Source of the DNA: Atribacterota bacterium
Lineage (GTDB): Bacteria > Atribacterota > Atribacteria > Atribacterales > Caldatribacteriaceae
Direction: 5' to 3'
Length of the DNA: 43,729 nucleotides
Assembly: GCA_039638595.1 (NCBI GenBank)
Contig: JBDIWM010000013.1
Span: 1 to 43,729 of the forward strand
Part shown: positions 1 to 17,016 of the stretch, one piece after another
Layout of the letters: the number at the start of each line of letters is the position of its first letter
How positions within the stretch are numbered: the first letter of the stretch is position 1
Translations under genes and position numbers: made by a program
Notes under the pieces: generated by a model
Database searches by the model: none
Seen by the model: only the letters and a program-made list of their open reading frames with translations
What the model was told of the DNA's origin: nothing

Positions 1-698
1 ACGGAATTTCTGCGAATTATCCCAATGTGGTTTTGATTGTCCTTCTTATTGATGAAAGGCCTGAAGAAGTGACTCAAATGGAACGTTCGGTGAAAGGATA
101 TGTTATTGCTTCAACGTTCGATCAGAAACCGGAAAACCATCTTCGGGTTGCCGAACTCACCTTAGAAAGGGCAAAGAGGCTTGTGGAAGAGGGGAAGGAC
201 GTGGTTATCCTTCTCGATAGCATCACTCGCTTGGCTCGATCCAACAACCTGGTTGTACCAACTACTGGAAAAACACTCTCTGGAGGTATTGACTCTTCGG
301 CTTTACACTGGCCGAAACGCTTCTTTGGGGCGGCCCGCAATATTGAAGAGGGTGGAAGTTTGACGATTCTTGCTACGGCCCTCATTGATACCGGTTCTCG
401 AATGGACGAAGTTATTTATGAGGAATTCAAGGGTACAGGGAATATGGAGCTCCATCTCAGTAGAGCTCTGGCCGAGAGTAGAATTTTTCCGGCGATTGAC
501 ATTCATCGTTCTGGTACCCGAAAGGAGGAGTTGCTCCTCAAGAAGGAAGACCTAGAGAGAATCTGGACTCTACGGAGGCTTCTGGCAAATGTTGAGTCGC
601 AGGAAGCCATCCAGATGGTCATCGAACGTATGCAAAACACCCGTTCCAACCGGGAATTTCTCAAAATCATTGACCAGGTTATGAAAGCCTCCCGCTAA
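1..698 (+). CDS. rho: Transcription termination factor Rho (C-terminal part; 5' end outside the window)
   Basis: Rho is a hexameric RNA-dependent ATPase/helicase that terminates transcription. The reading frame is open from base 3, so the gene starts upstream of the window; about 231 residues remain. Visible conserved blocks are LIDERPEEV, the Walker B region [35 protein letters not shown], the GTGNMELHL stretch and the [11 protein letters not shown]-loop region. The P-loop and the RNA-binding N-terminal domain lie before the window. The gene ends about 20 bases before the rpmE promoter, a neighbour pair common in Bacillota and Thermotogota. One small deviation is HWPKRFFG where most Rho proteins have HRPKRFFG or HKPKRFFG. 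Confidence 0.97.
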
Positions 699-7913: not shown

Positions 7914-8169
7914 CTTTGGTGGTTTCACTCTGGCAGTTCTTGAGATATTGCTGCTATGGAAAGATGTCCAAAAAATTGTGCGGCGGAAGGCTACTTCATC
8001 TTTTACCATGTTTTTGCGTCTTCTTTTAAGTGGTACAGTCATTCTCGTTTTTCTCCGCTTTTTTCATGGAGATATCATGCTCTTTATCCTCTCTTTCTCG
8101 GTGGTCTATTTTTCCTTGGTTATTTGGTTAGGAATGGACTGGAGGGATAGAAATGGAAGAAATATTTAA
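7879..8169 (+). CDS. AtpR-like small membrane protein of the ATP synthase operon
   Basis: This small protein has about three hydrophobic helices and a membrane-embedded arginine (FLRLLLSG), as described for AtpR of N-ATPases, which is thought to help build Na+-type c rings. Position between AtpQ and subunit a is the N-ATPase order. The alternative is the AtpI/subunit I family found at this place in some Bacillota. ATGs at 7879, 7891 and 7903 are possible; none has a strong ribosome-binding site, and the last overlaps AtpI by only 11 bases. The end overlaps atpB by 17 bases. The family call rests on size, helices and context. Confidence 0.65.
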   Translation: MVFPMIRAMIGSFGGFTLAVLEILLLWKDVQKIVRRKATSSFTMFLRLLLSGTVILVFLRFFHGDIMLFILSFSVVYFSLVIWLGMDWRDRNGRNI

Positions 8170-8818
8170 TCCTCAGACTCTTTTTTATTTTTTTACGATT
8201 CCGATTACCAAAACCATCGTTTCTACCTGGATAGTGATGGTATTTTTGGTGTTTTTGTCCTTTGTTCTCACCCGAAAGATGACTTTTATCCCTGGTCGAT
8301 TACAGAATGTGTTGGAACTCTTCGTGGAAGCGATTATCAACCTGATTGAAGGAATGTCGCCAGGTAATGGCAGGAAATTTTTGTCATTGGTCGGAACTCT
8401 GGCCCTTTTTATCGGGACAGCGAACCTGGCCCATCTTGTACCCGGCCTTAAGGCACCTACTTCCGATTTTAATACGGCTTTTGCTCTGGCATTAGTGGTA
8501 TTTTTTGCAGTCCCCTTCTATGGTATTACCACACAGGGGCTTAAACAATATTTTAAGGAATATATTTCTCCCTCGCCGATTCTTCTTCCTTTCCATGTTA
8601 TTAGTGAGATTACCCGGACCTTTTCTTTAGCCCTGCGACTTTTCGGCAACATTCTCGGGGAAGAAATCATTATTGGAATCCTATTTCTCCTGGCGCCTCT
8701 TTTTGTTCCTGTACCGATGATGCTTTTCAGTATTTTTACAGGAATCATCCAGGCGTACATCTTTACCATTCTTACCGTGGTGTACCTCAGTTCTGCGGTT
8801 GAAGTTTCAAAACATTAG
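8153..8818 (+). CDS. atpB: ATP synthase F0 subunit a
   Basis: Subunit a forms the ion half-channels against the c ring. The 221-residue protein has five to six membrane helices and the essential arginine at residue 162 in SLALRLFGN. The N-terminal PITKTIVSTWIVM and the C-terminal FTGIIQAYIFTILTVVYL resemble N-ATPase a subunits more than the typical F-type protein, a judgement from memory. The ATG at 8153 follows GGAGGGATAG. Confidence 0.95.
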   Translation: MEEIFNPQTLFYFFTIPITKTIVSTWIVMVFLVFLSFVLTRKMTFIPGRLQNVLELFVEAIINLIEGMSPGNGRKFLSLVGTLALFIGTANLAHLVPGLKAPTSDFNTAFALALVVFFAVPFYGITTQGLKQYFKEYISPSPILLPFHVISEITRTFSLALRLFGNILGEEIIIGILFLLAPLFVPVPMMLFSIFTGIIQAYIFTILTVVYLSSAVEVSKH

Positions 8819-8827
8819 TTGTATAAT
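8799..8827 (+). promoter_or_regulatory. Probable internal promoter ahead of atpE
   Basis: TTGAAG at 8799-8804 and TATAAT at 8822-8827 are separated by 17 bases and lie across the atpB stop. The -10 box is perfect and the -35 matches 4 of 6. It would start transcription near 8834, just before atpE, and could raise output of the c subunit, which is needed in many copies per enzyme. Confidence 0.55.
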
Positions 8828-8862
8828 CCCATTTAATGCTTTGACGAAGGAGATGAAAGTCT

Positions 8863-9129
8863 ATGCAAGGAGAGATAATTTTTCTTTGCGTGACAGTTTT
8901 CACTGCTGGTTTTGCTATCGCCTTGGGAGTCATATTTCCTGCTTTGGGACAGGGTAAAGCATGTGCTCAGGCTCTGGAGAGCATTGCTCGCCAGCCGGAA
9001 GCCACTGGTCCGATCAGTAGAACCCTTTTTGTTGGTCTGGCCATGCTTGAATCTCTGGCCATTTATGTCCTGGTTATTTCTCTTATTCTTCTTTTTGCCA
9101 ATCCTTTGCTTCGTTACGTCTTTCGTTAG
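8863..9129 (+). CDS. atpE: ATP synthase F0 subunit c, Na+-type signature
   Basis: Subunit c forms the rotor ring. The 88-residue protein is a two-helix hairpin with the conserved RQPEA loop. The ion carboxylate is Glu63 in [11 protein letters not shown]. Gln30 (ALGQG), Ser64 and Tyr68 are at the positions that bind Na+ in the Ilyobacter c ring (Gln32, Ser66, Tyr70, Glu65); the Thr67 equivalent is Leu65. The glycine repeat of helix 1 is degenerate ([10 protein letters not shown]). [11 protein letters not shown] and LILLFANP resemble N-ATPase c subunits. A good GAAGGAGA site precedes the ATG. Confidence 0.95.
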
Positions 9130-9143
9130 GAAGTGTTTCCAGT

Positions 9144-9659
9144 ATGATTCGTATTGACCGAAGTATCATATTTCAGATTATTAATTTTATTGCTCTGGTT
9201 TTTCTTCTTTTCCGGTTTCTCTTTAGACCTGTGGTTAGAGCGCTCGACCAGCGTTCTCAATTTATTCGGGGGGAGTTGCAAAAGATCGAAGATGAAAAGA
9301 AAAATCTTGAAGCTACAAAACGTGCTCTTGAGGAAGAGATGGTCAGAGCGAAAGAGAAATATTTTGAAATTATGGATCAGGCAAAATTGGAAGCTTCTAA
9401 AATTAAGGAAGGCATCATTCGGGAAGCATACGAAGAAGGCGAGAAAATTAAAAATGAGTACCGGCGAAAAGCGCGAAAAGAGGTAGAAGAATTACTCAGC
9501 GGTTTGCGTGAGGATATCGTTGAACTCACCGAGGAAGTGGTCAAGAAATTTCTTGCCACACAGATTACCCCTGAAGTGCAGACTCGTCTGATTGATGTGT
9601 TGCTTGAAGAAGCCTTGAAAGAGTTGGAGGCGCAGGTGGGAACAATTCATGAGCGATGA
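9144..9659 (+). CDS. atpF: ATP synthase F0 subunit b
   Basis: Subunit b is the peripheral stalk. The protein has one N-terminal membrane helix (about residues 8-28) ending in FRFLFRPVVRALDQR, then a long charged coiled coil to about residue 130 and a short C-terminal helical part. At 171 residues it is a normal F-type b length. N-ATPase b subunits are remembered as much longer (about 250). The gene overlaps the next small delta-like gene by 11 bases. Confidence 0.94.
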   Translation: MIRIDRSIIFQIINFIALVFLLFRFLFRPVVRALDQRSQFIRGELQKIEDEKKNLEATKRALEEEMVRAKEKYFEIMDQAKLEASKIKEGIIREAYEEGEKIKNEYRRKARKEVEELLSGLREDIVELTEEVVKKFLATQITPEVQTRLIDVLLEEALKELEAQVGTIHER

Positions 9660-9882
9660 AGTAGTACGGGTGGTGACACCTTTCCCCCTCACTGATGTGC
9701 AACGCGCCCTCATCCGGGCGAAGATGGAACAATTTTTAAACGGGAGTCTCTTCTCTCTTCAGGAGGAGATTGATGAGTCGCTCATTGGAGGAGTGGTTGT
9801 TTTCGTGCGGGATCTAATAATTGATTGCAGTATCAGGACGCAACTTGAAAGGATGAAAGAGTTTATATTGAAGGGCGAATAA
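9649..9882 (+). CDS. C-terminal-domain-only ATP synthase delta subunit
   Basis: Only 77 residues, against about 180 for a usual delta (AtpH). The whole protein aligns to the delta C-terminal domain: a strand like VVRVVTPFPLTDVQ, a helix, then the hallmark IDESLIGGVVVFVRDLIIDCS, cut here in sense as SLIGGVVV followed by IDCSIRTQLERM. The N-terminal six-helix domain, which normally holds the alpha subunits, is absent and there is no room for it, since the ATG at 9649 overlaps atpF. AGGTGGG lies eight bases upstream. Gene position between b and alpha is that of atpH. Together with b (171) it totals about 248 residues, near the length of N-ATPase b subunits. Confidence 0.85.
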   Translation: MSDEVVRVVTPFPLTDVQRALIRAKMEQFLNGSLFSLQEEIDESLIGGVVVFVRDLIIDCSIRTQLERMKEFILKGE

Positions 9883-9884
9883 AA

Positions 9885-11393
9885 ATGAGCGTTCTGGAAG
9901 AGGTTGTTCGGAAAACCAAAGAGATAGTTCGTTCTTACCAGGTCAGACCGGAAATTCACGAAGTTGGAGAGCTTCTGGAAGTGCAAGATGGTGTGGCTCT
10001 AGTAAAAGGTCTCAAGAAGGCTCTGGTTGGGGAACAACTCCTTTTTGCTGGAAAAATTCCTGGGCAAGTTTTTAATCTGGAGAGAGAGCGATTGCGGTGC
10101 ATTATCCTGGGTGATTACACTACACTTCGGGCTGGTGACCCAGTATTCCGGGTCAAAGGAACGTTAGAAATTCCGGTTGGAAAAGAGCTTTTAGGGAGAA
10201 CGATTGATCCCTTGGGAAACCCTCTGGATGGGGGTGCGCCTTTAAGTGCGCACAGTAAAAGGCCAGTATTTTCTCCAGCACCCAGGATTGTGGATCGGGT
10301 TCCGGTTCAGAGACCACTTCTCACCGGGGTGAAAATCGTGGATGCCATGATTCCCCTGGGAAAGGGGCAGAGGGAACTGCTTATTGGGGATCGACGTACC
10401 GGCAAAACTTCGCTGGCCCTCGACGTGATAATTAATCAAAAAGGGAAAAATGTCATTTGTATTTATGCTGGAATAGGACAGAAACTTTCCAGTATTGTTC
10501 AGGTTGTGGATACCCTCAAGTCTTTTGGGGCAATGAGTTATAGTATAGTCGTGGCTACTTCTTCTGAGGACCCTCCAGCTCTGGTCTATCTTACTCCATA
10601 TGTAGCCTGTGCCATTGGGGAGTATTTTATGTATCAGGGCGAGGATGTGCTTCTGGTGTACGATGACCTGACCAAACATGCTAATGCTTATCGAACCATC
10701 GCTCTTTTGATGCGCCGGCCTCCGGGAAGGGAATCGTATCCGGGGGATATCTTCTATATTCATTCGAGTTTACTGGAACGGAGCGCTCAACTGTCGGAAG
10801 ATTTGGGTGGCGGTTCCTTGAGTGCGCTTCCTATTGCAGAGACTCAGGAAGGTGATATCTCGGCATATATTCCCACTAATATTATTTCCATTACGGATGG
10901 ACAGATTTATCTTGAGAGTGGGCTCTTTGCTAGAGGTTTTATGCCTGCAATAAATATAGGGCTTTCGGTTTCGAGGGTGGGGGGAGAAGCGCAGACCCCC
11001 ATCATGAAGAGTGTGGCAAAAAGGCTACGATTGGATTTGTCGCAGTACTTTGAGTTGGAGGACTTTGCTCGCTTCAGTTCGGATCTCGACGAAATAACCA
11101 AAAAACAACTCGAACGTGGGAAAAGGGTATTGCAACTTTTGACCCAGCCTCGGTTCACTCCTTTACCATTGGCTTGGGAAATTGTCTGTATTTTTTCTGC
11201 TACTCAGGGACTGGTAGATAAAGTCCCCTGGGAACGAATCAAAGACTGGGAAGCGCAACTTTATGCTTACTTCGAGACAGAGAGATCAGAGCTCCTTGAG
11301 CGTTTGGAAAAAGAGGTATCCTGGTCTCGGGACTTGGAGGAGGAACTGAAGGTCACCATTATGCAGTTCACTGAAAGATTCCTGGAGATATAG
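9885..11393 (+). CDS. atpA: ATP synthase F1 subunit alpha
   Basis: Alpha alternates with beta in the catalytic hexamer and binds non-exchanged nucleotide. The 502-residue protein has the N-terminal barrel, the P-loop GDRRTGKT (Lys174), YDDLTKHANAYR, RRPPGRESYPGDIFY and the arginine-finger region SVSRVGG. The P-loop has Arg where nearly all F-type alphas have Gln (GDRQTGKT). KHANAYR is close to the N-ATPase version (RHA.AYR) rather than KQAVAYR. A normal N-terminal helix of about 20 residues remains, although the delta domain that usually binds it is missing. AAGGG precedes the ATG at 9885. Confidence 0.97.
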   Translation: MSVLEEVVRKTKEIVRSYQVRPEIHEVGELLEVQDGVALVKGLKKALVGEQLLFAGKIPGQVFNLERERLRCIILGDYTTLRAGDPVFRVKGTLEIPVGKELLGRTIDPLGNPLDGGAPLSAHSKRPVFSPAPRIVDRVPVQRPLLTGVKIVDAMIPLGKGQRELLIGDRRTGKTSLALDVIINQKGKNVICIYAGIGQKLSSIVQVVDTLKSFGAMSYSIVVATSSEDPPALVYLTPYVACAIGEYFMYQGEDVLLVYDDLTKHANAYRTIALLMRRPPGRESYPGDIFYIHSSLLERSAQLSEDLGGGSLSALPIAETQEGDISAYIPTNIISITDGQIYLESGLFARGFMPAINIGLSVSRVGGEAQTPIMKSVAKRLRLDLSQYFELEDFARFSSDLDEITKKQLERGKRVLQLLTQPRFTPLPLAWEIVCIFSATQGLVDKVPWERIKDWEAQLYAYFETERSELLERLEKEVSWSRDLEEELKVTIMQFTERFLEI

Positions 11394-11397
11394 AAGG

Positions 11398-12252
11398 ATG
11401 GCTAAAATTCAGGGAATCAAAAAACAGATTGCTCTGGTCAGGCAAATTCAACACGTGACCCATGCGATGAAGACTCTTTCCGCGGTTCGTTTGCGACTGG
11501 GGAAAGAAACTGTAGAGCAGGTTCGCCACTTTGTGGAGAATTTAAAAAAGAATTTGGAAACCATCGAACTTTATATGCCCTCTCTCGTATTTCCAGAGGA
11601 TCGAATTCTTCTTTTGGCTATATTTTCGGATAAGGGCTTGGTGGGAGGTTTTAATAAGAATGTTGCCGACGCCGTGTTCCGCTTTGTGGAATTGAAAGGT
11701 CTTCCCCGAGTAAAAATTGCAATTTTGGGAAAACAGGGAGAGCGGGAATTGCGAGAGCTGCAAAAAAATGTAGTTCTGGTTTCTTCTTTATCGTTACATC
11801 ATGTTCCCCACTATGCTGGTGTGCGGGACCTGGCGTTTCGGATTATGAAAATGAGGGAGGAAGGACGCTATACGTACCTCTATATTGCTTTTACTCGTTA
11901 TTTTTCGATCACCTCTCGTGCTCTACAGATTGTACAGGTATTTCCGCCACAACTTCACACGAAATTGCTTCCAATACAAGATCGAAAGAAATTAGAGGTA
12001 GAACATCTGCTTTTTGGCGATTTGATTTCCTTACGGAGGACCTTGGAGCAACAGTATCTTGTAGGGATGCTTTATCAAACAGTGATGGAGTCTTTCGTCA
12101 GTGAGCACGCCGCAAGGTTTACCATCATGGATGCAGCGACGACCCATTCTAAGGATATTATTGAATCACTGACTATTTTTTACCACAAGAAGCGTCAAGA
12201 GAGAATCACGCAGGAATTGAATGAGGTCACGAGCGCCGCGGAAGTTTTATAA
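11398..12252 (+). CDS. atpG: ATP synthase F1 subunit gamma
   Basis: Gamma is the rotating central shaft. The 284-residue protein has the expected long N-terminal helix (IQHVTHAMKTLSAVRL), a Rossmann-like middle with SDKGLVGGFNKN, and the conserved C-terminal helix SEHAARFTIMDAAT followed by ITQELNEVTSAAEVL. It starts four bases after the atpA stop, with AGAAGG overlapping that stop. No regulatory cysteine insert of the chloroplast type is present. Confidence 0.96.
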   Translation: MAKIQGIKKQIALVRQIQHVTHAMKTLSAVRLRLGKETVEQVRHFVENLKKNLETIELYMPSLVFPEDRILLLAIFSDKGLVGGFNKNVADAVFRFVELKGLPRVKIAILGKQGERELRELQKNVVLVSSLSLHHVPHYAGVRDLAFRIMKMREEGRYTYLYIAFTRYFSITSRALQIVQVFPPQLHTKLLPIQDRKKLEVEHLLFGDLISLRRTLEQQYLVGMLYQTVMESFVSEHAARFTIMDAATTHSKDIIESLTIFYHKKRQERITQELNEVTSAAEVL

Positions 12253-12259
12253 TTTTTGA

Positions 12260-14106
<1,847 letters not shown>

Positions 14107-14177: not shown

Positions 14178-14768
14178 ATGGTTTATTTTTTGAGTAAGTA
14201 TCTGGCTCTTTTCCTGTTGAAGCTTTTTTTTCGTTTCCGAGTCAAAGGTCAGTTTTCTATTCCCAAGGAGGGACCCTGTGTTATTGTTTCAAATCATTCC
14301 AGTTATCTTGATCCCATTGTGATAGGGTGTGCTGCGCCGCGGCGAGTCTACTTTGTCGCCAAAGAGGAACTTTTCCGCAATCCGCTGGCACGGTTTTTTC
14401 TGTATCAGCTGGGAGCTTTTCCCCTTCGAAGGAAGGAAGTTGACCAAGTTGCAGTGAAAAGAATTTTTACCCTCCTGCGGCAGGGGAAGGTGGTTTGTCT
14501 TTTTCCCGAAGGGACACGCAACGACGGCGTGATCAGAGAATTTAAACCTGGAGTGATTAAGCTGCTACTAAAAGCAAAAGTTCCTCTGGTCGTCGCTGGG
14601 ATTCGAGGAACTTACGAGAGTTTTCCGCGGGGAGCAAGGTTTCCTCGACCCTTTCCCATTCAAGTAGCTTTTTCACATCTTCTGCTTTCTTCGACGGTGG
14701 GAGAACTCGAATTGAGCATTCACAAAGAGATGGAGGTATTACTAGGTGAAGGTGGTAAGGAGTCGTAA
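14178..14768 (+). CDS. 1-acyl-sn-glycerol-3-phosphate acyltransferase (PlsC family)
   Basis: PlsC-type enzymes acylate lysophosphatidic acid to phosphatidic acid at the inner face of the membrane. The 196-residue protein has a hydrophobic N-terminal anchor, the catalytic HX4D motif in NHSSYLDP, FRNPLARFF, and the substrate-binding FPEGTRN. Length fits the short PlsC class. The start codon ATG at 14178 lacks a clear ribosome-binding site. The 71-base gap before it holds only a weak promoter-like sequence. The end overlaps the NHL-protein gene by 23 bases. Exact acyl acceptor cannot be told from sequence. Confidence 0.9.
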   Translation: MVYFLSKYLALFLLKLFFRFRVKGQFSIPKEGPCVIVSNHSSYLDPIVIGCAAPRRVYFVAKEELFRNPLARFFLYQLGAFPLRRKEVDQVAVKRIFTLLRQGKVVCLFPEGTRNDGVIREFKPGVIKLLLKAKVPLVVAGIRGTYESFPRGARFPRPFPIQVAFSHLLLSSTVGELELSIHKEMEVLLGEGGKES

Positions 14769-16140
14769 AAAAACAGTGCTCGCTGTCCTTGTCGTGTATC
14801 TCTGCTTCTTTCTTTCTGGAAGTGTGCAGGCTGTAGAATTTCCCTGGAAGCTGGAGAAAAGCTTTGAAGAAGTTGCCGAGGATCCCCCTTTTATGAATTA
14901 CCCGGTAGGAGTGGTGGTGGACTCTGGGACGGGAGTGGTTTGGGTGAGTGATTGGGGAAACAACCGGGTTCTGGCTTTTACCCGAGAAGGGAAACTTTTG
15001 AAATCTATTCCAGGTCTTCAAGGACCGGTAGGGCTGGCTTTACGCAGCGGGAAACTTTTTGTGGTGGAGCAGAAAGGGAATCAGGTCAAAATTTTCGACA
15101 CGGTGACGGGAAATGTAGTAGTTTCGCTGAAGCCCGAAAAATCGTCTTTCCGTGAACCCCGGGGAATATGGGTTGATGGGGAGGGAAATATATATGTGGC
15201 TGATACTGGGAATTCACGGATCGTGATTTTCGATTCTTCGGGTAAAGAAATCGATTCTTTGGGTAAAGAGGGAATGGGTGACGGAGAGTTTTATTATCCG
15301 AGGGGTATTACAGTAGACCGTGAGGGACACATCTGGATTGTGGACACGGCGCACAATTGCGTTCAAGTACTTGACAAAAGTGGTCGGTTCTTATTCCGTT
15401 TTGGTCGGGAAGGAAGCGAGGATGTGAACTTCCGTCATCCCCGATATATTTTTGTGCAGAATGATTTTGTTTTTATCTCTGATTATCGTAATCACCGTAT
15501 CACAATTTATGATCGGCAAGGTAATCTTGTAACTACCATTGGTGGCAAGGAAGGTATTGGAGAGTTAGATTTTTCATATCCTGAAGGAGTATGGGTGGAT
15601 GAGGAAGGGATATTATGGGTAGCTGATGCCGGAAACAACCGGGTAAAGGCCATCAACGCGGTTTTCCTGCTTCAGCCTAAGCGATACCTTCTCTCTCTTT
15701 TGGAAAGTGGAAATGATGGCGATTTTTTTGCTCTGTGGGAACGCCTTTCTCCAGAGGAGAGGAAAGATCCGGAATTGGCAAGGCTGGTCTTTCGTTTTCT
15801 CCAAAAACGTGGCGATCTGGAAGGTATGATAGCTCAGGCTGAAGAACTCTTTCTTAACGACGCAGAACATCGGGATAGGTGGAGAAAGACTTTGGGTGAA
15901 CTGTATTACCTGAAGGGAAAAGAATTACGCAAAATCGGGAAAGCGGAAAGCGCCCGAGAGTTTTATCTCAGGTCTTTTCGGAATGGTTACTGGCGTGCTT
16001 TTCTCTCTTTCCTTTGGCTTTCTTTTCTTCTGATGGGTGGGTCAAATGTCTTTCTTTTGGTTCTCGCCCTTGTGCTTCTTTTGCTTCTTTTAGTTTTCTA
16101 TCGAATAAAAATGTACCGTAAGAGGTGGTCAAAATGGTAA
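14746..16140 (+). CDS. Secreted/anchored NHL beta-propeller protein with C-terminal membrane helix
   Basis: Not a protein I can name. The 464 residues begin with a signal peptide (KTVLAVLVVYLCFFLSGSVQA). Then come six NHL-type repeats (for example GIWVDGEGNIYVADTGNSR and GVWVDEEGILWVADAGNNR) from about residue 50 to 305, enough for a complete six-bladed propeller. Next is a helical stretch of about 100 residues that looks TPR-like (LYYLKGKELRKIGKAESARE). A C-terminal transmembrane helix follows, ending in a basic tail (YRIKMYRKRWSKW). The propeller would face outward, with the tail in the cytoplasm. GTG at 14746 follows GGAGGT by eight bases and overlaps plsC, and the stop overlaps the MEMO gene. 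Confidence 0.85.
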   Translation: MKVVRSRKKTVLAVLVVYLCFFLSGSVQAVEFPWKLEKSFEEVAEDPPFMNYPVGVVVDSGTGVVWVSDWGNNRVLAFTREGKLLKSIPGLQGPVGLALRSGKLFVVEQKGNQVKIFDTVTGNVVVSLKPEKSSFREPRGIWVDGEGNIYVADTGNSRIVIFDSSGKEIDSLGKEGMGDGEFYYPRGITVDREGHIWIVDTAHNCVQVLDKSGRFLFRFGREGSEDVNFRHPRYIFVQNDFVFISDYRNHRITIYDRQGNLVTTIGGKEGIGELDFSYPEGVWVDEEGILWVADAGNNRVKAINAVFLLQPKRYLLSLLESGNDGDFFALWERLSPEERKDPELARLVFRFLQKRGDLEGMIAQAEELFLNDAEHRDRWRKTLGELYYLKGKELRKIGKAESAREFYLRSFRNGYWRAFLSFLWLSFLLMGGSNVFLLVLALVLLLLLLVFYRIKMYRKRWSKW

Positions 16141-16982
16141 GAAAACCAGCGGTATCTGGATATTTTTATCCTTCGCAGGGAGAGGAACTGCGCGCTATGG
16201 TTAGAACCATGTTGACCGAAGAAACGAAGCAAGTGATTCAAAGGTCCCTGCAGGGTGCAAAAGGTGTTGTCGGTGTGGTCAGCCCCCATGCTGGATATAT
16301 CTATTCTGGAAAGATTGCCGCGTACTCTTCTTATGCTCTCTCTCTTTCTCCCCCTGTAGAGACTGTGGTGCTCATTGGACCAAATCACCGAGGGATCGGG
16401 GCAGAAGTGGCTCTGGGAGGCGAGGATTTCTGGCAAACTCCCCTCGGCCTTGTGGCCTTGGATCGAGAAGCGATTGATTTTTTGGTGGAACACAACCCCT
16501 TTTTTCGGGTGGATTCAGAGGCTCATCGATTAGAACACTCTCTGGAGGTGCAGCTCCCTTTTCTGCAATGTTTTCTTTCCTATGATTTTAAGGTGCTGCC
16601 AATTGCGCTTGTCAAACAGGATCCAGCGACGGCTCGCGCTATTGCCGAAGCTTTGAAAAAACTCAGTGCGTGTCGCAGGCTTTGTATCGTTGCCAGCAGC
16701 GATTTTTCCCATTATGAAGAGGCGAATGTGGTAACCGAAAAAGATTCTGCCCTGATTGTTCGTATTCTTTCTCTGGATGTCGAAGGTTTTTATAGGGAAA
16801 TGTATACACGAGGAATCAGTGTTTGTGGTCCTGGGGGTATTGCAGTATTGATGGAATATCACCGAAATATCTCAGGAAGTAAGGGATCTCTTTTGGTGTA
16901 TACGCACAGTGGTGAGGTAACCGGTGATATGGACCGAGTTGTAGGGTATGCTTCGATAATTTTTCCAAAATTATCCTCCTGA
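16134..16982 (+). CDS. MEMO1 family protein (AmmeMemoRadiSam system protein B)
   Basis: The protein belongs to the MEMO family, relatives of extradiol dioxygenases and of human MEMO1. It has 282 residues. The expected metal-site residues are visible: His in VSPHAGYIYSGK, His in IGPNHRG, Asp and His in SSDFSHY, and Cys in VCGPGGI. EHSLEVQLPFLQ is also family-typical. In many prokaryotes the gene sits with AMMECR1 and radical-SAM partners, but neither is here. ATG at 16134 follows AGAGGTGG and overlaps the NHL gene by seven bases. The cellular function in bacteria is unsettled. Confidence 0.88.
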   Translation: MVRKPAVSGYFYPSQGEELRAMVRTMLTEETKQVIQRSLQGAKGVVGVVSPHAGYIYSGKIAAYSSYALSLSPPVETVVLIGPNHRGIGAEVALGGEDFWQTPLGLVALDREAIDFLVEHNPFFRVDSEAHRLEHSLEVQLPFLQCFLSYDFKVLPIALVKQDPATARAIAEALKKLSACRRLCIVASSDFSHYEEANVVTEKDSALIVRILSLDVEGFYREMYTRGISVCGPGGIAVLMEYHRNISGSKGSLLVYTHSGEVTGDMDRVVGYASIIFPKLSS

Positions 16983-16987
16983 ATCTC

Positions 16988-17016
16988 TTGACAGACCTGC
17001 GTAAATCTTTTACAAT
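16988..17016 (+). promoter_or_regulatory. Consensus promoter for the rpoBC operon
   Basis: TTGACA at 16988-16993 and TACAAT at 17011-17016 are 17 bases apart, a near-perfect housekeeping promoter right after the MEMO gene stop. Transcription from about 17023 leaves a leader of roughly 138 bases before rpoB. No L10-binding leader was recognised, and rplJL is not in this operon. Confidence 0.88.

Follow-up and report, generated by a model that had tools for sequence, protein, structure and literature searches.

The TRIM and Thin NHL proteins are eukaryotic and cytosolic and bind RNA or partners; they are not known to have a signal peptide, TPR region, or membrane anchor of the kind reported here. 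In Mycobacterium tuberculosis, the sensor domain of the membrane protein PknD is a six-bladed NHL propeller outside the cytoplasm, and the ScyF family (PEP-CTERM NHL protein) has a secreted NHL propeller and a C-terminal hydrophobic segment. GpsA and PlsY act on the path to phosphatidic acid. According to the respective papers, the LPA/PlsC step leads to phosphatidic acid (PMC11633183), MEMO1 is conserved from bacteria to humans with a primary molecular function described as unknown (PMC11081632), and the first isolate of Atribacterota seems to possess three layers resembling membranes (PMC7736352).

We analyzed a stretch of 43,729 nucleotides (the window) from a genome of the phylum Atribacterota, to which its close relatives, Candidatus Caldatribacterium among them, also belong. 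The three genes described first, with their parts and motifs, lie on the forward strand of the window. A gene at 14746–16140 encodes an NHL-TPR-TM envelope protein of 464 amino acids, recognized from sequence, Pfam, and AlphaFold2. Its start codon is GTG, and a GGAGG ribosome-binding motif (14732–14736) sits 9 nt upstream. It stands between a plsC-like acyltransferase gene (14178–14768, 196 amino acids) and the gene for MEMO, or AmmeMemoRadiSam protein B (16134–16982, 282 amino acids). The plsC stop at 14768 produces an overlap of 23 bp with the NHL gene, and the MEMO ATG at 16134 one of 7 bp; the MEMO ribosome-binding motif, GAGGTGG (16122–16128), lies within the codons of the NHL tail. A chance ORF was ruled out by relatives at 27–84% identity across the phylum. 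Scanning for promoters and terminators turned up no more sites than shuffled sequences did; one promoter-like site of that scan, with 11 of 12 matches, lies between MEMO and rpoB (16988–17016).

The AlphaFold2 model of the NHL protein was built on 24 sequences (mean pLDDT 90.2, pTM 0.78). Residues 1–29 (14746–14832) form, by inspection, a putative signal peptide ending in VQA, and a hydrophobic N-terminal core was present in 24 of 24 members; a lipoprotein was discarded because no lipobox cysteine was seen by eye. Residues 35–304 (14848–15657) are predicted, with pLDDT mostly above 90, to form a propeller of six four-stranded blades, the last of which is closed by the N-terminal strand 35–40. 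The Pfam NHL model (PF01436) matched the protein at E 1e-36 (123.5 bits, cut-off 20), with five stretches individually significant. The propeller is strongly conserved: 40 of the 41 positions invariant among 24 sequences fall within residues 52–299. It is followed by a TPR-like helical stalk (residues 311–412; 15676–15981), assigned from the model, the family profile, and structural matches, and this part gave the same helices when folded alone (mean pLDDT 89.5). The family profile matched engineered consensus TPR proteins at positions 311–404 with a whole-chain E of 3.9e-31, no single stretch reaching 1e-10 alone. Pfam TPR models matched the window protein weakly (TPR_8, E 0.076), and the Z values of 8.5–11.3 against TPR protein structures may reflect only a common helical-repeat arrangement.

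At the C-terminus, the model has a short helix (residues 417–429; 15994–16032), which may sit at the membrane interface, and a last helix of residues 433–463. The latter contains the predicted membrane span, whose best 19-residue window (433–451; 16042–16098) has a Kyte–Doolittle mean of 3.05. Hydropathy predicted this span in 24 of 24 members (means of 2.45–3.45), and in all 24 the following tail is basic by charge count (net charge +3 to +9); in the window protein, it comprises residues 452–464 (16099–16137) and ends in Trp. A two-span hairpin is the less likely alternative, since helix 417–429 aligns with a more polar segment in families f5 and f7, which makes one span simpler. A preliminary description of this DNA had claimed the same architecture, with the C-terminal span as its critical point, and the two gene overlaps; Pfam, AlphaFold2, hydropathy, and the sequence bear it out. 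From the signal peptide and the basic tail after the span, the propeller and stalk are predicted, by hydropathy and inspection, to be outside and the tail inside. Because Omp85 was found in 48 of the 50 Atribacterota genomes, outside should mean the periplasm; at that frequency, co-occurrence with outer-membrane genes, a lead from the same description, does not discriminate.

The closest solved fold to the propeller is the NHL domain of Thin (6xg7; Z 40.4, rmsd 1.9, 270 aligned), and the NHL domains of TRIM2, TRIM3, TRIM71, and Thin gave Z values of about 39–40 at 25–29% identity. The PknD sensor (1rwl; Z 32.1, rmsd 2.3, 250 aligned) shares the extracytoplasmic six-bladed propeller on a membrane protein; unlike PknD, the window protein has a TPR stalk and a C-terminal anchor and no kinase domain. 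A receptor Ser/Thr kinase was rejected because the Pfam scan found no kinase family at E up to 1 and the tail has 13 residues. Pfam and NCBIfam give the protein only a generic repeat name: it scored 134.9 bits for ScyF (NF035926) against an equivalog cut-off of 350 and 54.9 for the LIC_12708 family (NF047780) against a subfamily cut-off of 150. The parts (NHL, TPR, PlsC, and MEMO) are of known kinds. A partial literature search of open-licence papers retrieved no description of the NHL protein, its full-length architecture, its two-phylum range, or the fixed trio of genes.

The NHL gene was detected in 32 of the 50 Atribacterota genomes at E 1e-20. Of these 50, 22 have a completeness of 90% or more and a contamination of 5% or less, and 19 of them carry the gene. 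Among 40 fetched regions, 33 hold the gene; G008 gave two copies, one resembling family f3, and its bin may be mixed. Where the contig left room, the same-strand upstream neighbor was always plsC (31/31 loci; contig ends in the other two) and the downstream neighbor always MEMO (30/30; contig ends in the other three). The trio, whose presence in other genomes had been set as a test in the preliminary description, is therefore found beyond the window. In the taxonomic order of the window, the overlap of plsC with the NHL gene spans 11–50 bp across 19 fetched copies, and the MEMO start lies anywhere from 16 bp before to 6 bp after the NHL stop (starts by nearest match in both cases). In f5/f7, the distance from plsC to the NHL gene ranges from −17 to +150, and 34–68 nt separate the NHL stop from the MEMO start in seven intact copies.

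Genes outside the trio vary while the trio stays. The gene beyond MEMO is rpoB in nine of the fetched loci and rpmE in three; in eight the contig ends, and in ten no gene of the window follows within 1.5 kb. In an f4 genome, lysA comes after MEMO. The window, G001, and G002 have F-type atp genes before plsC, whereas f5/f7 have a V/A-type ATPase operon there (identity checked in L041). The F-type ATP synthase operon occupies 8153–14106 in the window, and the V/A-type ATPase operon 12061–19999 in L041. Three f5/f7 loci (L041, L044, and L049) have a small ORF after MEMO, which in L041 (8188–8532) is DUF498 (PF04430, 66.6 bits).

Across the 50 genomes, the NHL gene and a trio-type MEMO were both present in 30, the NHL gene alone in two (G026 and G034), MEMO alone in three (G022, G039, and G041), and neither in 15 (Fisher p 4e-8, phylogeny and contig gaps ignored). 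For the 22 better genomes, the figures were 19 with both, three with neither, and none with only one (p 6e-4, again ignoring phylogeny and contig gaps). Both genes are missing from some genomes of fair completeness, G028 and G031 for example, and plsC-like genes remain in several genomes without the NHL gene (G028, G031, G044, and G046). In G041, only a 100-residue NHL ORF remains between plsC and MEMO (L049 1873–3340), through either decay in place or an assembly error. The fetched flanks of 49 NHL loci from outside Atribacterota gave no tblastn match (E 1e-3) to the window plsC or MEMO. The conservation of the trio in one phylum hints at an unrecognized membrane-related job.

The plsC neighbor scored 110.2 bits with Pfam Acyltransferase (cut-off 23), and its translation shows NHSSYLD and FPEGTR, which we take to be the HX4D and EGTR motifs of PlsC-type acyltransferases; it falls below the subfamily cut-off of TIGR00530 (96.5 against 102.95 bits). 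The MEMO neighbor scored 297 bits with TIGR04336 (cut-off 26), and a member from f5 scored 293.1. All 22 trio members compared have H52, H85, and C231, which align, with an offset of 4 set by eye, with H49, H81, and C244 of human MEMO1, the metal ligands of that protein (PMC11081632). By these sequence features, the downstream gene is an intact AmmeMemoRadiSam protein B.

A signal peptide, NHL, TPR, and a C-terminal span also make up the protein of locus L105, from Candidatus Muiribacteriota CSMAG_1642. With a profile built from 18 members of this second phylum, a full-length relative was found in 36 of its 39 genomes, the match reaching at least profile position 413 of 458. We fetched 20 regions, of which 19 had an NHL call and 18 of these had upstream sequence. 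In all 18 with room, gpsA is upstream on the same strand, 17 by gene calling and L213 by tblastn. The simple ORF caller missed genes behind antisense ORFs, namely gpsA in L213 and the NHL gene in L223, where the second-phylum profile search shows it to be present. A vanW-like gene (with VanW and G5 domains in the example inspected) lies between gpsA and the NHL gene in 16 loci, plsY comes immediately before gpsA in nine, and lepA is downstream of the NHL gene in eleven; the example identities were GpsA, 359 bits (cut-off 257), PlsY, 184.3 (137.2), and LepA, 984.8 (533.9). An RsbW-like ATPase is downstream in six loci, five of which also showed a STAS gene (one such pair was checked with Pfam). 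In L105 (1254–2573), the genes after the NHL gene encode an RsbW-like ATPase, a STAS protein and, judged by eye, MurJ. MEMO was not found adjoining the family in the second-phylum loci looked at, so it is not a general partner of this architecture.

The two families match by profile over 395 columns (E 1.1e-72), although generic NHL propellers align too, and they differ in their neighbors, gpsA, vanW, and lepA against plsC and MEMO. The stalk-plus-TM profile alone also matched between them (97.1%, E 6.1e-11, 91 columns), and a repeat with another alignment gave 94.8% and E 5e-8 over 65 TPR columns without the TM; one second-phylum member, L213, exceeds the TPR_19 cut-off (25.8 against 25). On these profile matches, the stalks of both phyla likely descend from a common ancestor, with the reservation that TPR repeats match each other in general. 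Elsewhere, the Atribacterota profile matched 22 of 336 other genomes at 1e-40, and among the 14 of these that were fetched, only L173 (G305) has a C-terminal span by hydropathy in an ORF below 600 amino acids; its contig is also that of G390, a second-phylum genome. With the second-phylum profile, 14 of 342 genomes from outside matched at 1e-45, and every match stopped at or before profile position 338 of 458. For most genomes, no more than four candidates were scored in either search, so a missing match is no proof of absence. The position of the NHL-TPR-TM architecture beside phosphatidic-acid synthesis genes in two phyla is suggestive. The membrane-related job that the preliminary description gave to the trio gains independent support from the second phylum, with its gpsA and often plsY.

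The architecture and gene linkage of the NHL protein are firm; from its gene context, we infer a possible mechanism. We tentatively propose an inner-membrane binding scaffold or sensor that serves phosphatidic-acid and envelope synthesis. The signal peptide would carry the chain across the membrane, the propeller and TPR stalk would stand in the periplasm, and one C-terminal helix would anchor the protein, its short basic tail reaching the cytosol. Made together with PlsC and MEMO, it could couple the making of phosphatidic acid and of the envelope to an extracytoplasmic ligand or partner; in Atribacterota, it may also place or inform MEMO at the membrane. This proposal presumes that the three proteins share a pathway, that the propeller binds a ligand, and that the NHL protein acts on PlsC and touches PlsC or MEMO. 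The cytosolic part, of about 13 residues, cannot signal alone, so a partner would have to relay any signal to the inside. Against a scaffold or sensor stand the housekeeping nature of PlsC and GpsA, the fact that genes may retain an ancestral order without working together, and the failure to find MEMO beside the family in the second-phylum loci looked at.

About equally likely is an envelope protein with a separate job of its own, linked to its neighbors through expression level or inherited gene order and sharing no pathway with them. This agrees with the housekeeping nature of the neighbors, with the position of the trio next to atp, rpoB, rpmE, or lysA depending on the genome, and with the lack of MEMO in the second-phylum loci looked at. 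It fits less well with a trio that persists while its outer flanks change, with the joint loss of the NHL gene and trio-type MEMO from fairly complete genomes (G028 and G031, for example), and with lipid genes that recur beside the family in two phyla.

A role of the NHL protein as a helper in protein export or in assembling the outer membrane, comparable to that of BamB and BamD for BamA, seems unlikely. The wide presence of Omp85 in the phylum and the resemblance of the stalk to BamD (3qky, Z 9.3) and to the membrane protein LapB (7wzb, Z 10.6) speak for such a role, but Z values of this size may simply come from an arrangement that helical repeats have in common. BamB is an eight-bladed propeller lipoprotein, whereas the window protein has six blades and an inner-membrane anchor, and no bam gene was seen beside the NHL gene in the loci inspected. 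It is very improbable that the protein is an extracytoplasmic propeller enzyme, whether lyase or lactonase: Pfam SGL is above its cut-off (63.4 against 26.3 bits) and the propeller resembles the lyase PAL (3fvz, Z 32.0) and a lactonase (8djf, Z 31.3), but PAL (peptidyl-hydroxyglycine lyase) has a three-histidine zinc site, H203 is the sole invariant histidine here among 24 aligned sequences, and non-enzymatic NHL domains are the better structural matches.

Whichever role it has, the protein marks an envelope architecture common to two phyla and otherwise only generically named. The fixed unit of MEMO, a phospholipid acyltransferase, and a periplasm-facing binding protein offers a bacterial setting for testing MEMO function. 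On a further, unlikely reading, the NHL protein would be the membrane dock of the AmmeMemoRadiSam system, in which an extracytoplasmic state read by the propeller would control MEMO beside PlsC; if so, metal or redox chemistry would be coupled to phospholipid synthesis. The end of the tail bears on this idea. Its last residue is aromatic in 31 of 32 complete Atribacterota copies, being Trp in 21 of 22 from the taxonomic order of the window and Phe or Tyr in 10 of 10 from f5/f7 (L089 counted there by similarity), and in only 1 of 19 second-phylum copies. The comparison of the MEMO-linked with the unlinked clade (31/32 against 1/19) is one contrast between two clades. In the order of the window, the TGG codon and the stop after it share nucleotides with the ribosome-binding site or start codon of MEMO; the terminal Trp may be forced there by the MEMO start signals, and its value as proof of function is weakened. 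G018 lacks the terminal Trp yet keeps the ribosome-binding site (GGAGGTGA). The aromatic end in f5/f7 is not forced in this way, given the distance to the MEMO start in those families.

The other components of the AmmeMemoRadiSam system are encoded elsewhere in the genome. AMMECR1 was found in 40 of the 50 Atribacterota genomes, and in that of the window it is adjacent to a TIGR04337 radical SAM gene (332.2 bits, cut-off 220) on another contig (G000:C4). The downstream gene of the trio, which encodes protein B of the system, lies at a distance from the genes for protein A and the radical SAM enzyme and is linked instead to those for PlsC and the NHL membrane protein. By family search, the AMMECR1/radical SAM pair is next to ApbE, MreC, PBP2, and RodA (L144 1031–7696, which is G000:C4), so that both halves of the system adjoin envelope genes; the ORF at the place of MreD had no Pfam match. 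Loci from f4 and f3 (L145 6963–13638 and L146 1476–8135) show the same arrangement by eye. In G035 (f7), a long ORF with a secretion-type N-terminus (L050 3351–5309) matches MEMO and continues, by eye, as AMMECR1, with no Pfam-level AMMECR1 reported for that genome. This candidate fusion would be an extracytoplasmic version of AmmeMemoRadiSam, and a likely radical SAM gene lies beside it (L050 5321–6613).
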